Below are positions 5,287 to 17,159 of a stretch of DNA of 64,000 bases, one piece after another. Under the pieces are notes generated by a model that saw only the letters and a list, made by a program, of their open reading frames with translations, was not told where the DNA came from and ran no database searches. Positions within the stretch are counted from its first letter, which is position 1, and each line of letters starts with the position of its first letter. The position numbers and the translations under genes are program-made. Source of the stretch: a virus. The stretch spans positions 222,585 through 286,584 of the IMG/VR virus record IMGVR_UViG_3300036770_004723; one strand, written 5' to 3'.

Positions 5287-5534
5287 TTTCTATCCTTCCA
5301 TTTTGCGAAGTCGTCAATTTGTTTGAATATTTGGTCAGCACTAAAGTCAAATTCTTTGGAAGGTATTATGATAGTTCCCATTGATGTAGCTAAAGGATCT
5401 GCTTCATAGAAAGGTATGAAAAGTCGTGCCTCTTTCTCATACATAACTATCATAAAAACATTAGAACTTAATCTACCTTTAAACCTGCTTTCTATCAGGC
5501 TTTTAAGTTTGTTTAACTCTAATAATATACTCAT
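5283..5534 (-). CDS. Small unknown protein
   Basis: 83 residues, coupled at both ends by ATGA overlaps to its neighbours. Basic N-terminal helix then alternating strands (VFMIVMY, ARLFIPFY). No motif recognised. Confidence 0.8.
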   Translation of the reverse strand: MSILLELNKLKSLIESRFKGRLSSNVFMIVMYEKEARLFIPFYEADPLATSMGTIIIPSKEFDFSADQIFKQIDDFAKWKDRK

Positions 5535-6676
5535 GATTCGCCCTTGTTAATCAAGTCTACTCGATCCATTAGATCTTGGGCTATTTCTTCAGCATCGTTA
5601 TCATTTAACATTGAGTCCAGTGTCGAACAGAAATCATGAATTTCGTACACAAGGTCATCAAATTTATTATTTGTTTCGTCAAAATTAAAACATGAAATGT
5701 GTGCTTCAAATCCGGCAGCTTGTGGGTGGCCACCTCCGCCCATGTCAATTGCAATTGTATTAATTACAACATCATTCTTAGATCGTAAGCTTACTTTACA
5801 CATGCCTTCACTTAGTATGGTAATGGCTGCACCTATATGATTAGTTTCCGTGAATAGAATATTACAGGCTTCGGATCTAAATGATTGAGGTAAATTTACA
5901 CAAGGAATTGTGTAGGTATTTCCCGATGTTTTACCTTTGAATGTAAGTAAAAATTTATTTTCAAGTGCTTCATTTAAAAAGCTTTGACGTATTTCTCTGG
6001 AAATAGTGCCCCTATCGAATAATTTAACAAATTTCTGATCTAAACTATTCATGTTTACTGTGGCAGCAGCTTCTTCTATTGTGAAAATAGTTTCATAGAA
6101 GCCCAACATGATTTCATCTGTACCCAACATCTTTCTATGCCACAAATCTCTGTCTTGTGCGTGACGAATCATTCTAGGTAGGTGATCTAAATAATATTTT
6201 ATATTAAAATATCTTGTTGCTTTTTCTGAATTAGTGTAGGCATTGAAAAAAGCAAAAGCTAATGCACAGCCACTGTATTCGGTATCAAGAATTCCCCAAA
6301 TCTTTTTCTCTTGTATAAGATGATTTAATTCCAGAACTCTAGGTTCATGGTGATCAATCAAACAGATTTTAACACCTGTCTCTAGAAGTGACTCAATTGT
6401 TTGTAGGTCAAAAGAAAAATCAACAAGGATAAGTAAATCACCTTTACCTAATTTCTTAGGTATCATTCCATATTTGTACGCAACATACTCAATTGGAATA
6501 GTTGATATTAGTGTAGTATGCTTCTCAGCAATTAAATCACTTTTTCCTGAATGCCATAGGTAAACACATGCAGCTGAAAGTAAACCATCAGTACAATCGG
6601 CATGATAATAAACACTAATATCAGTAACATCGTTCAACATACCTGATTTAATATTAATATTGTTGTTGGTATTCAT
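5531..6676 (-). CDS. DHH/DHHA1-family phosphoesterase
   Basis: 381 residues. Residues 25-30 HADCTDG give the first metal motif, DFS at 86 the second, DHH at 108-110 the signature, and GGGGHPQAAGF at 313-323 is the DHHA1 nucleic-acid or nucleotide-binding motif. Two-domain DHH proteins are manganese-dependent phosphodiesterases acting on nanoRNA, cyclic dinucleotides, pAp or single-stranded DNA (RecJ). All key residues seem present, so it should be active. The substrate cannot be told from sequence. In a phage, plausible roles are turning host RNA fragments into nucleotides or removing signalling cyclic dinucleotides. It heads a coupled three-gene run. Confidence 0.9.
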   Translation of the reverse strand: MNTNNNINIKSGMLNDVTDISVYYHADCTDGLLSAACVYLWHSGKSDLIAEKHTTLISTIPIEYVAYKYGMIPKKLGKGDLLILVDFSFDLQTIESLLETGVKICLIDHHEPRVLELNHLIQEKKIWGILDTEYSGCALAFAFFNAYTNSEKATRYFNIKYYLDHLPRMIRHAQDRDLWHRKMLGTDEIMLGFYETIFTIEEAAATVNMNSLDQKFVKLFDRGTISREIRQSFLNEALENKFLLTFKGKTSGNTYTIPCVNLPQSFRSEACNILFTETNHIGAAITILSEGMCKVSLRSKNDVVINTIAIDMGGGGHPQAAGFEAHISCFNFDETNNKFDDLVYEIHDFCSTLDSMLNDNDAEEIAQDLMDRVDLINKGES

Positions 6677-10479: not shown

Positions 10480-10896
10480 TTAAAGTACCTCGAACCATTT
10501 ACATTGATCATAAGAAGTATCAGACATCTTGACCCATGAATAACCTAAATCAGTTAATTCTGACTTGGTTTTAATACTATTGAATCTATTGTCAAGTATA
10601 TATGTACCTTTGTCCGTTTCTGTTGCTACCACACAATGCAATTCTTTTTCTTCGGTATGACAAATGATTAATCTAGAGGAATGTCCTTGATCGTGTATTA
10701 ATTTGCGTAAAGCAAGTGCAAAGTCTTCACAGTCTCCGCTGAAAGATTGAGTTCCATCATAATCATCATCTGGCAGTACCCACTTTTCTAATATTCCATA
10801 TTTTTCTACATCACATACATAAGTAAAGCCTTGTTTAACCTTACCGAACAGTTGAATTAACTCATGTTTAGCAATTGGCCTTTTTGTTTGTTCCAT
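10480..10896 (-). CDS. Transglutaminase-like cysteine peptidase
   Basis: 138 residues. GDCEDFALALRKL around Cys56, ELHCVVA with His87 and YILDNRF with Asp102 give the Cys-His-Asp triad of the bacterial transglutaminase-like cysteine proteinase group (papain fold). Members cleave peptides or isopeptide bonds. No signal peptide, so it acts in the cytoplasm unless exported by the lysis genes. The start lies inside the end of the lipoprotein gene. A lysis role or a role against host proteins both fit. Confidence 0.75.
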   Translation of the reverse strand: MEQTKRPIAKHELIQLFGKVKQGFTYVCDVEKYGILEKWVLPDDDYDGTQSFSGDCEDFALALRKLIHDQGHSSRLIICHTEEKELHCVVATETDKGTYILDNRFNSIKTKSELTDLGYSWVKMSDTSYDQCKWFEVL

Positions 10897-11436: not shown

Positions 11437-11646
11437 TTAAACTTTATTTAATACTGTTATATTGCTAAGGGCTAAGACTATTCCATTATCGAAGTCGTTA
11501 AACTCGCCAAAATCTTTAGCTTCACTTATTTTAGCTTGCAAAGATTCTATTGTTTCAGTTTTATCGTATAAAAGAGAAGTCATTGCGAAAGCAAAGCCAT
11601 TACGTTCGTGCCTTTTCTTTCTTTTCTCTCGCCATTTACCGAACAT
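11437..11646 (-). CDS. Small unknown protein with very basic N-terminus
   Basis: 69 residues. Residues 3-14 are almost all K, R and E; the rest is neutral and helical. It might touch nucleic acid, but no motif supports that. Start overlaps the C39-like gene by 11 bases. Confidence 0.7.
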   Translation of the reverse strand: MFGKWREKRKKRHERNGFAFAMTSLLYDKTETIESLQAKISEAKDFGEFNDFDNGIVLALSNITVLNKV

Positions 11647-12112
11647 TAATTTTCTCCTGATCTACATAAGATTGTTTAACATCTGACATTTTTACTCTTA
11701 GAGTTGGAGCATAACCTTTTATAAGTTCAGACATTTCATCTTCGCAATCTGGATCTAGTGTATACCAAAACTTATCGGCGCGTCCTTTGTTAGGATCTAG
11801 AACAACAAGCTTATCGTCTTTATCCAAATACATTATTACGCTGTGATTTCCTGCTACAGTATTTAATGAAGGCACTGTACATAAGTAAAAATATCCATCG
11901 TCAATATAATCAACTATTGGATTAAGTAGCTCATGCTCGATACCTAAAGATTTTAAAAAAGTATGCTCATTTACCTTATAGCAATTCTTTTTAAAATCTT
12001 GATGAAAGACTTCAGTTATTTTATCAATGTGAATGCCTGTAAGCATGGATAAACTGGCAGACACACAGTTATCACTTAAAGTTTGAATAACGTGTTTTAT
12101 ACGGAAGTCCAT
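11636..12112 (-). CDS. C39-like (papain-fold) cysteine peptidase homologue
   Basis: 158 residues. DNCVSASLSMLTG places a cysteine (Cys16) at the start of a helix; GNHSVIMY gives His90; VVLDPNKG gives Asp106. This is the order and spacing of the C39/papain-like families (Cys, His, Asp-Pro). There is no signal peptide and no transporter nearby, so it is not a bacteriocin exporter. It is followed by the lysis-type genes and preceded by the Ntn hydrolase, in a small cluster of peptidase-fold proteins. Confidence 0.7.
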   Translation of the reverse strand: MDFRIKHVIQTLSDNCVSASLSMLTGIHIDKITEVFHQDFKKNCYKVNEHTFLKSLGIEHELLNPIVDYIDDGYFYLCTVPSLNTVAGNHSVIMYLDKDDKLVVLDPNKGRADKFWYTLDPDCEDEMSELIKGYAPTLRVKMSDVKQSYVDQEKINVR

Positions 12113-12116
12113 AAAA

Positions 12117-12563
12117 TTAAATCCATTTTTCTTCTGTTATAGAATAGGCGAGTACATTACTGCCTGTACAGATGTCTCGGGTTGCCGTATATTTTATGGC
12201 CTCAATGGCGTTCTTGCCGTGATCTAATGCAGCTAGTGCAAAATGTTCTCCTGAACCTAAAGTTACACTGCAAGCTAACTTACAGCCATACGGCTGATTT
12301 TTGTCTGATGTTCTATGGTAGACTTCTTTGGTTTTCTTATCAAAGTATAATGCAGCACATTCAATAGAGGATTCAACTTGTTCACCATTAAAAATCTGCA
12401 CCAACTTATTATAGTCAGCTAATTTACCACAAAAGAACCATATACCGTCTTGTGTTTCCACAAATTTGTCCACAGACTCGTCTGTTAGAATTACAGTTTC
12501 TAATAGTACTCTTTGATCCACTGCTAATATTTTTGATTTATGATCATACACAACAGTTGTCAT
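12117..12563 (-). CDS. Proteasome beta / HslV-like Ntn hydrolase
   Basis: 148 residues, close to the size of HslV. After Met1 comes TTVVYD, so methionine removal would expose an N-terminal threonine, the nucleophile of this family. Asp16 (AVDQR) and Lys33 (VDKF) sit where the catalytic Asp17/Lys33 of proteasome subunits are expected. The C-terminal half has SGEHFALAALDHG, then EAIKYTATRDICTG, matching the family pattern GSG..FALGAL..G.SA.EA...A..D..TG. The family forms rings that degrade proteins fed by an ATPase. No HslU or other AAA+ gene lies in this window, so it may act alone or with a host unfoldase. Confidence 0.82.
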   Translation of the reverse strand: MTTVVYDHKSKILAVDQRVLLETVILTDESVDKFVETQDGIWFFCGKLADYNKLVQIFNGEQVESSIECAALYFDKKTKEVYHRTSDKNQPYGCKLACSVTLGSGEHFALAALDHGKNAIEAIKYTATRDICTGSNVLAYSITEEKWI

Positions 12564-12575
12564 CTTATTTACCTT

Positions 12576-13448
12576 TTAGTAGTTCTTTACAATTACTTCA
12601 ACAGTGTTATTGAGTTTGTTGTCTACAGCACGGTTAAGAGTGTAGGCTTCACCTTTTGTTCTGAATTCTGGATAAATAACTTTATATTGCTTCATCCACT
12701 TAGCCAGTTCTTTATTTTTGTGCCCACGGTGTTGAACACAATTACTTAGGATCCATCGAATACCTAAACCGTCTAGATAATCCAACATACTAAACAACTT
12801 TAGATCGTTATCTTTATTCCAATTGCCTTCATAGACATTATCGCCGCTAGCAGAATACGGAGGATCGAAATAAAAAACGTGATTTTTGTCAATTTTCTTA
12901 ATTGCCTTCTTAACATACTGAAGGTAACAAAGATTATGTAATTTTATATTCTGCAAACGATTCCATATCTCTGTAATATGGGCATCACGCGAATTAGATG
13001 GATTTGACGTCCTGAATCCGAAAGGTAAATTAAACTCACCTTCTGCATTAAATCTGATTAAACTGCTAAAGCTATGTTTACTTAATACCCAAAGTCGATC
13101 AGGTGTCATGTTTTTGTTACATCGTTGGCGGTAACGATAATAAGCATCTTCATCTTGTGCTTCACGACCTAGCTTGTTTCTCTTTATCTCTGTATTTAAA
13201 AGCTTAATAAGCTTGTCTGATTCAGATGTAGTTTTAATGAATTCCATTATACTAAATACATTTTTATCGTATTCATTGTAATGTACTTTCTTACCTTGAC
13301 CTAAAGCATTAAGTGCTATTACTCCAGAACCTCCAAACACATCATGCAAAACTTTATATTCACCTAATAGACTTTTAATCTGATCAACTAGCTTAAACTT
13401 GCTTCCTTGATATGCTATAGGTCCACGAATTATTTTAAAAGCGTCCAT
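12576..13448 (-). CDS. Dam-like DNA adenine methyltransferase (D12 class)
   Basis: 290 residues. YQGSKFKLVDQI at 13-24 resembles motif X of Dam-type enzymes, HDVFGGSGVIA (35-45) is the SAM-binding motif I, and YFDPPYS (DPPY at 195-198) is catalytic motif IV. The order X-I-IV is that of D12-class N6-adenine methyltransferases such as Dam and T4 Dam. GATC specificity is likely but not proven; GATC is frequent in this DNA. It would protect phage DNA and could mark regulatory GATC sites. Confidence 0.88.
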   Translation of the reverse strand: MDAFKIIRGPIAYQGSKFKLVDQIKSLLGEYKVLHDVFGGSGVIALNALGQGKKVHYNEYDKNVFSIMEFIKTTSESDKLIKLLNTEIKRNKLGREAQDEDAYYRYRQRCNKNMTPDRLWVLSKHSFSSLIRFNAEGEFNLPFGFRTSNPSNSRDAHITEIWNRLQNIKLHNLCYLQYVKKAIKKIDKNHVFYFDPPYSASGDNVYEGNWNKDNDLKLFSMLDYLDGLGIRWILSNCVQHRGHKNKELAKWMKQYKVIYPEFRTKGEAYTLNRAVDNKLNNTVEVIVKNY

Positions 13449-13714: not shown

Positions 13715-14203
13715 TTATTTATTTCCAGACCAATCATCTAAGCCTACAGTAATTGTATTGCCTTTTAAGGAAAGGTGACTGTCGCTCAATGGTTGAAATT
13801 CAATTTCGTATTCTAGCAGGTCTGATTTTGTAACCTCATACTTTGCACCAATAGAAAAAGTTTTAAATTTACCGTGAACAATACTGTCCAATAAGGCAGA
13901 AGCTTGCAAAACATTTACACTAGGTAGCCAGAAAACTTGAATACGGTTTTTATCGACCTTACCAATCTTTACGAATACGCGACGCCAATATTGATCCATG
14001 TAACTTGATCTGTCTTTTCTCCATTTAGATTTACGTACAGAAATGCCGAATGTTCTGTAAACAAGAATTACAACCCTATCGTTAGTATCAAGTGCTTTCT
14101 TTAAAGCACTTGGATCAGGCAAACCACAAAATGATACGGTCTTTGGCATTGGTACAGAATCTAATTGATTCTTCCAATTGCGGATAGCAGTATTAATCGA
14201 CAT
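13715..14203 (-). CDS. Unknown protein, paralogue of the gene at 16773-17159
   Basis: 162 residues. Residues about 20-100 match the product of 16773-17159 closely, including FGL or CGLPDP, RKSKWRK, RSS, and an identical WRRVFVKIGKVDKNRI stretch. The last 60 residues are private to this copy. The strongly basic RKSKWRK patch suggests nucleic-acid contact. No named family recognised. Confidence 0.85.
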   Translation of the reverse strand: MSINTAIRNWKNQLDSVPMPKTVSFCGLPDPSALKKALDTNDRVVILVYRTFGISVRKSKWRKDRSSYMDQYWRRVFVKIGKVDKNRIQVFWLPSVNVLQASALLDSIVHGKFKTFSIGAKYEVTKSDLLEYEIEFQPLSDSHLSLKGNTITVGLDDWSGNK

Positions 14204-16189: not shown

Positions 16190-16795
16190 TTACTCATAAG
16201 GTGTTGTTTCCTTGTGTGGAGGCATTTTACGAATTCGTTCCGTTACTTTTTCACAGTGCCTACGTGCCGCTAAAAATCCTTTAGTGTAGTGCATTCCGTT
16301 ATTATAGCAAACATTGTCAATAAAGAATGTTCTACCTGGTCTCATAACTATGTTGTACAATAGATGTGAGTAGATGTGATCACGATGTACGTAATTGCTT
16401 TTCCACATACCTTGTGGAGTGTATCCAGATCTTCGTGTGTATAAATTTGGATAGACACCTACAGAAACATAGAAGTTTTGATCTGGTAAACGGAAACCAA
16501 ACTCTTCGTATAGCCGTTTTGCCATACGATCATTTAGTTCTTTGGCATTTGCTTTATTGTCAGCACAAACATCTTTGTAGATCTCAAGACAATTATCTCT
16601 AAATTCTTTTGACCAAGCAGGAACTATTGGCGTGGCCCATTTAACAAATAGAGTATGACGTTCATGTAATTTGCCTTTACTGTCTTTCCAGTCAACTAGG
16701 GTTACATAGCTAATGTTGTACGCTTTGTCTTCTTGTCGTTCAACGTATTTACGTACAACAGTATTCCCTGATCTAAATGGGATTGGTTGATACAT
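16190..16795 (-). CDS. Unknown protein
   Basis: 201 residues from the ATG at 16795, which has AAGGAAATATTG before it; the longer frame to 16846 lies inside the upstream gene. Rich in aromatic and basic residues. HRDHIYSHLLYNIVMRPGRTFFIDN near 145-170 is a distinctive histidine-bearing stretch, but no family is recognised. Confidence 0.8.
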   Translation of the reverse strand: MYQPIPFRSGNTVVRKYVERQEDKAYNISYVTLVDWKDSKGKLHERHTLFVKWATPIVPAWSKEFRDNCLEIYKDVCADNKANAKELNDRMAKRLYEEFGFRLPDQNFYVSVGVYPNLYTRRSGYTPQGMWKSNYVHRDHIYSHLLYNIVMRPGRTFFIDNVCYNNGMHYTKGFLAARRHCEKVTERIRKMPPHKETTPYE

Positions 16796-17159
16796 CAATA
16801 TTTCCTTTATCAAAACCTGCTGTAGGACACCAAACATCTGGTACAAAAGACCTAGTGCCGTTATACTTTTGTTTATCTAGTTTCTGGACAGGTAAATAAA
16901 ATACTTTGATTCGATTTTTATCTACTTTACCGATCTTTACGAATACGCGACGCCAATACTGAACAAGATGGCTGCTTCGATTTTTTCTCCATTTGCTTTT
17001 GCGTCCGCTGGTGCCGAAATTACGATAAACCAAAATAAGTGCAGTACCGTTGTTTTCAAGTGCTTGACCTAGTTTGATTGGATCAGGCAAACCAAAGAAT
17101 GAAGTCACTTTAGGTACATTCTCTTTTTTACAATCCTCAATATATTTTTCAAAATTCAT
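16773..17159 (-). CDS. Unknown protein, paralogue of the gene at 13715-14203
   Basis: 128 residues. Shares FGLPDP, RKSKWRK and WRRVFVKIGKVDKNRI with the 13.7 kb gene but ends differently after about residue 100. Three kilobases separate the copies, so the duplication is local. Function unknown. Confidence 0.85.
   Translation of the reverse strand: MNFEKYIEDCKKENVPKVTSFFGLPDPIKLGQALENNGTALILVYRNFGTSGRKSKWRKNRSSHLVQYWRRVFVKIGKVDKNRIKVFYLPVQKLDKQKYNGTRSFVPDVWCPTAGFDKGNIDVSTNPI

Follow-up and report, generated by a model that had tools for sequence, protein, structure and literature searches.

The gene at positions 12117..12563 of the window (the whole 64,000-nucleotide stretch analysed here, which is the final 64 kb of a 286,584 bp record classed as linear in IMG/VR and possibly incomplete) encodes a proteasome-type Ntn hydrolase of a short phage branch, not HslV proper. 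The protein is a further member of the phage proteasome-like family (PPH) already described in 2021, the published members of which are ~140 aa long, lack helix H2, occur in phages and have no AAA+ partner (Fuchs, Alva and Lupas, 2021; PMC8665760).

Gene context and family assignment

The PPH gene and its neighbours in this part of the window are the following:

12117..12563, minus strand: PPH-family proteasome-like Ntn hydrolase gene (148 aa, ATG start)
12564..12578, minus strand: leader, with a Shine-Dalgarno-like AAAAGGT just 5' of the ATG, read from the sequence
12576..13448, minus strand: D12-class N6-adenine DNA methyltransferase, co-directional, upstream (Pfam PF02086, 9.6e-30)
11636..12112, minus strand: co-directional downstream gene, PHROG_4049 (4.4e-27)
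10480..10896, minus strand: bacterial transglutaminase-like cysteine proteinase, Peptidase_C93/BTLCP (Pfam PF06035, 1.4e-16)

The leader, AAAAGGTAAATAAG-ATG, contains the Shine-Dalgarno-like element and overlaps the stop codon of the methylase gene (12576-12578). Because the gaps to the co-directional neighbours are short, 12 nt from the end of the methyltransferase gene to the PPH start and 4 nt from the PPH stop to the PHROG_4049 gene, the PPH gene looks like part of an operon.

Single-sequence searches of Pfam and NCBIfam gave weak matches to the 148-aa protein, with Pfam Proteasome (E = 4e-4, 20.4 bits) falling slightly below its 22.4-bit cut-off. PHROG_1040 (‘peptidase HslV family’) matched residues 1-147 at 8.9e-22, and tblastn recovered 45 INPHARED records of phages of Vibrio, Pseudomonas, Rhizobium, Klebsiella, Shewanella and Aeromonas, in many of which the matching protein is annotated as proteasome subunit beta, HslV family or nucleophile aminohydrolase. 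Because 16 sequences aligned together proved too diverse for searching by pattern, three sub-alignments were used, adding more than 100 IMG/VR loci. The resulting family profile, which includes this sequence, finds PPH once in its own 286.6-kb record (8.8e-48); the record holds this single family copy and no other Pfam Proteasome match. These three lines of evidence, the PHROG_1040 match, the INPHARED relatives and the profile match, confirm that the reading frame of the initial annotation, placed here on the minus strand, is a real gene. The nearest relatives found were all phage PPHs, at 25-40% identity. A scan of genome contigs returned two distant bacterial relatives only, and we therefore infer no host.

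The protein agrees with published PPH/PHROG_1040 members in its length (148 against ~140 residues), its catalytic set, its lack of H2 and propeptide, its occurrence in a phage and the lack of an AAA+ partner. T2, D16, K33 and G46 align with the equivalents of Thr1, Asp17, Lys33 and the oxyanion Gly47 and are conserved. It belongs with PPH rather than RPC, as there is no C-terminal extension and the chain stops 14 residues after G134. The same record carries terminase, portal and tail sheath genes, as tailed phages do. Its terminase (42% identity) suggests a distant relationship to the Y3/Alexandra/JA11 type of Erwinia/Dickeya jumbo phages. This copy differs from other PPHs in its sequence (~40% identity at best to any relative found), in residing in a 286.6 kb phage, and in three unusual residues, Q17, L20 and S135.

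Predicted structure, catalytic residues and distance from HslV

The AlphaFold2 model (69-row alignment; mean pLDDT 96.7, pTM 0.90) consists of two strand sets flanked by one helix (48-58) and a helix pair (106-114, 119-126). The first helix precedes the central strands and is followed by H3 (106-114) and H4 (119-126), with H2 missing. T2 is positioned just ahead of the first strand, D16 closes the second strand, K33 lies just ahead of strand 34-36, and G46 ends the strand preceding H1. The best Foldseek matches in the PDB were 20S beta chains (E ~1e-9, probability 1.00, TM by query 0.67-0.75), and matches in the viral library include annotated phage proteasome/HslV-like proteins. The Ntn fold proposed in the initial annotation is thus upheld by both the model and its structural matches. 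Its placement of a threonine nucleophile also agrees with the prediction, in which Thr2 is modelled where the first strand begins, while D16 and K33 hold canonical positions in the alignment. Since the fold is present and Thr2 stands at the first strand, neither a departure from the Ntn architecture nor a displaced nucleophile was found in the model or the alignment.

All catalytic positions are present: T2, D16, K33, G46 (oxyanion), S104, D130 and T133. The MTT start, D16, K33 and the C-terminal block G..FALAALDHG...A...A..D..TG can be read exactly as first annotated. Among 71 dereplicated members, conservation was nearly complete for T2 (71), D16 (70), K33 (71), G46 (70), G103 (71), S104 (67), G105 (71), D130 (69), T/S133 (71) and G134 (71); the search patterns held the MTT start and some also D16 or GSG stretches, so that these counts are partly selected for, while K33, G46, D130 and T/S133 were in none of the patterns. 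The threonine directly follows Met1, leaving no propeptide. Three positions depart from the family: Q17 is S or G in 68 of the 71 members, L20 is T or S in 65, and S135 is G in 69. In the profile-PDB alignment the 20S counterparts of Q17 and L20 are Ser18 and Thr21 of the DSRAT motif, residues that border the substrate groove. Because of this location, the substrate specificity of this copy may differ from that of other PPHs.

The first reading of this protein as an HslV-like peptidase holds at the level of the proteasome/Ntn family. Its filing under HslV is less accurate, given the lack of an HslV model match, the missing H2 and a profile nearest to the 20S proteasome. Like the PPH protein, HslV (ClpQ) has an N-terminal MTT, a Thr/Asp/Lys active site and a GSG motif, and the remote homology of the PPH profile to E. 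coli HslV is clear from the alignment (hhalign probability 93.9, 23% identity). However, the PPH protein lacks H2, has 148 instead of 176 residues, comes from a record in which no HslU was found, and shares its C-terminal D..TG(G) motif with 20S beta subunits. Searched against the family profile, PDB sequences gave a full-length match to 20S beta8 at 6.4e-13, and the closest solved chains were 20S beta5/beta8. These subunits are thus the best PDB matches by both profile and fold, and an RDxYTGG motif occurs in the PPH family; compared with them, the PPH protein is ~50 residues shorter and is without alpha subunits, propeptide and H5.

Capture of a true HslV from a bacterium would account for the shared MTT start and GSG motif, and NCBIfam HslV models do match 2 of 16 relatives, weakly. 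Against such an origin, HslV models including the equivalog TIGR03692 gave no match to the protein at E<=0.01, H2 and 18 residues are missing, and the nearest relatives found are phage PPHs. We regard a host-captured HslV as extremely improbable and rejected it on the lack of a model match, the lack of H2 and the shorter spacing between G46 and S104 (58 residues versus 76 in E. coli HslV). A comparable case is the jumbo phage pSal-SNUABM-04, published in 2020, in which ORFs 1 and 116 were described as ‘HslV’ without HslU (PMC7823757). As described, it is like the present phage a jumbo phage that has HslV-like genes but no HslU.

Unfoldase partners and proposed activity

The absence of a visible AAA+ gene, noted at first from the window, was borne out for the whole record. 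AAA and AAA_2 models gave one locus (129015-130169, AAA_2 score below cut-off), which is a DnaX-type DNA polymerase clamp loader outside the window and the sole AAA+ gene found. A Walker A scan of ORFs >=100 aa across the record otherwise gave only helicase, kinase and unrelated candidates. ClpB_D2-small was absent from the 286.6-kb record, and HslU (AAA_2 + ClpB_D2-small) was not found in it, the record being linear and possibly incomplete. The published PPH survey discusses the same partner question and likewise saw no co-occurring AAA+ for PPH homologs (PMC8665760).

The protein might instead borrow a host unfoldase (HslU, ClpX or ClpA) and degrade proteins of the host or the phage in an ATP-dependent manner. 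The homology to HslV is real, and the phage record brings no unfoldase of its own; however, with H2 missing, the outer surface that meets HslU in HslV is probably altered, judging from known HslUV structures, and the published survey offers no co-occurring AAA+. We consider borrowing of a host unfoldase to be quite unlikely. A repurposed Ntn enzyme, either a specific peptide ligase/amidase like connectase or an inactive scaffold, is very unlikely in our estimate. The proteasome-like family does include the monomeric ligase connectase (PMC8665760), and Q17, L20 and S135 are unusual residues near the active site of this copy, but the catalytic positions are all intact and strongly conserved, and the 148-aa protein lacks the insertion between S3 and S4 that is the signature of connectase.

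The reading that we favor, with moderate confidence, is that the protein would be an active, self-assembling threonine peptidase, independent of ATP and of an unfoldase, where both activity and oligomerization are inferred. Host methionine aminopeptidase would remove Met1, freeing the threonine as nucleophile. Because proteasome subunits need assembly to be active, we propose that PPH subunits would form a ring-like or other oligomer. With no dedicated ATP-driven unfoldase, such a particle could cleave proteins that are unstructured or presented in a specific way, and its substrate could be phage virion precursors or host proteins. In the literature searched, no activity or assembly was reported for any PPH.

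A possible role in virion maturation, and the wider neighborhood

One possible substrate is suggested by the genomic setting of the relatives. A gene for the portal, terminase, head, head closure or adaptor lies no more than 5 kb away in 46 of the 70 dereplicated relatives; in Vibrio phage 1.147.O the PPH gene is located between head completion and head closure genes, and in BUCT006 it is beside head morphogenesis. In addition, Peptidase_S78 (HK97-type) was found in 0 of 46 PPH records compared with 4 of 25 arbitrary viral contigs (Fisher p = 0.013, a significance inflated by related, non-independent rows), and the record analysed here gave no S77 or S78 family match. A role as a virion-maturation or assembly protease, serving head morphogenesis in many relatives and replacing the prohead protease, would fit these observations. 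However, the neighborhood enrichment is modest, as head and packaging genes occupy a large part of a small, 40-kb phage genome. In KPP10 and Shewanella phage 3/49 the PPH gene is found among DNA-metabolism genes, and in the present phage it lies in an accessory region, far from terminase and portal. Furthermore, jumbo phages without a recognizable S77 or S78 can have other prohead peptidases, and the absence of S78 from PPH carriers may be a matter of lineage or may mean that PPH takes its place. The head neighbors and the S78 absence therefore weakly suggest virion maturation, as a lead and not a result, and we consider the role on the whole unlikely. Since it concerns the substrate, it is partly compatible with the threonine peptidase proposed above.

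A more speculative combination, which we hold to be improbable, would have PPH as a viral proteasome that stands alone, needs no unfoldase, acts on virion or host proteins and replaces the prohead protease in some lineages, here possibly within a proteolysis cassette with the two neighboring cysteine peptidases. This copy represents another intact, divergent PPH, and in our survey AAA_2 was present in 0 of 46 other PPH-carrying phage records, while control genomes all gave signal. The PPH data, together with the weak S78 anti-association, make the role of PPH a simple testable question in culturable carriers.

There was no Erwinia or Dickeya phage among the PPH tblastn matches, so that PPH seems to be accessory in this phage lineage. 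The first 25 kb of the window had no megablast match among phages, and PADLOC models gave essentially methyltransferase matches only. A search for a partner gene conserved across 70 loci found none in common with the window except for one distant C39-like co-occurrence (locus L124).

The PPH gene has two cysteine-peptidase-like genes, BTLCP and C39-like, at most 1.7 kb away, and PPH and BTLCP genes also occur together in Shewanella phage 3/49. The C39-like gene is the PHROG_4049 neighbor, a family listed in PHROGs as of unknown function. Its product reads as a C39/papain-like cysteine peptidase, with Q10, C16, H90 and D106 invariant in the alignment; it had no Pfam match and no significant PDB match, and a search of viral contigs gave no relatives. 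The same accessory region holds a DHH/DHHA1 phosphoesterase (PHROG_4771, window 5531-6676, minus strand). Two further minus-strand ORFs of the window, 13715-14203 and 16773-17159, have a closely similar segment in common (GLPDP, RKSKWRKxRSS, then YWRRVFVKIGKVDKNRI) and are likely a local duplication of a gene without assigned function.

Elsewhere in the record the tail sheath family phrog_23 is represented by two different genes (162625-164283 and 198978-200597). The two subunits of DNA topoisomerase II (78133-81780 and 84636-87812, minus strand) are both unusually long and have internal HNH endonuclease matches, which suggests that they hold inteins or inserted homing endonucleases.
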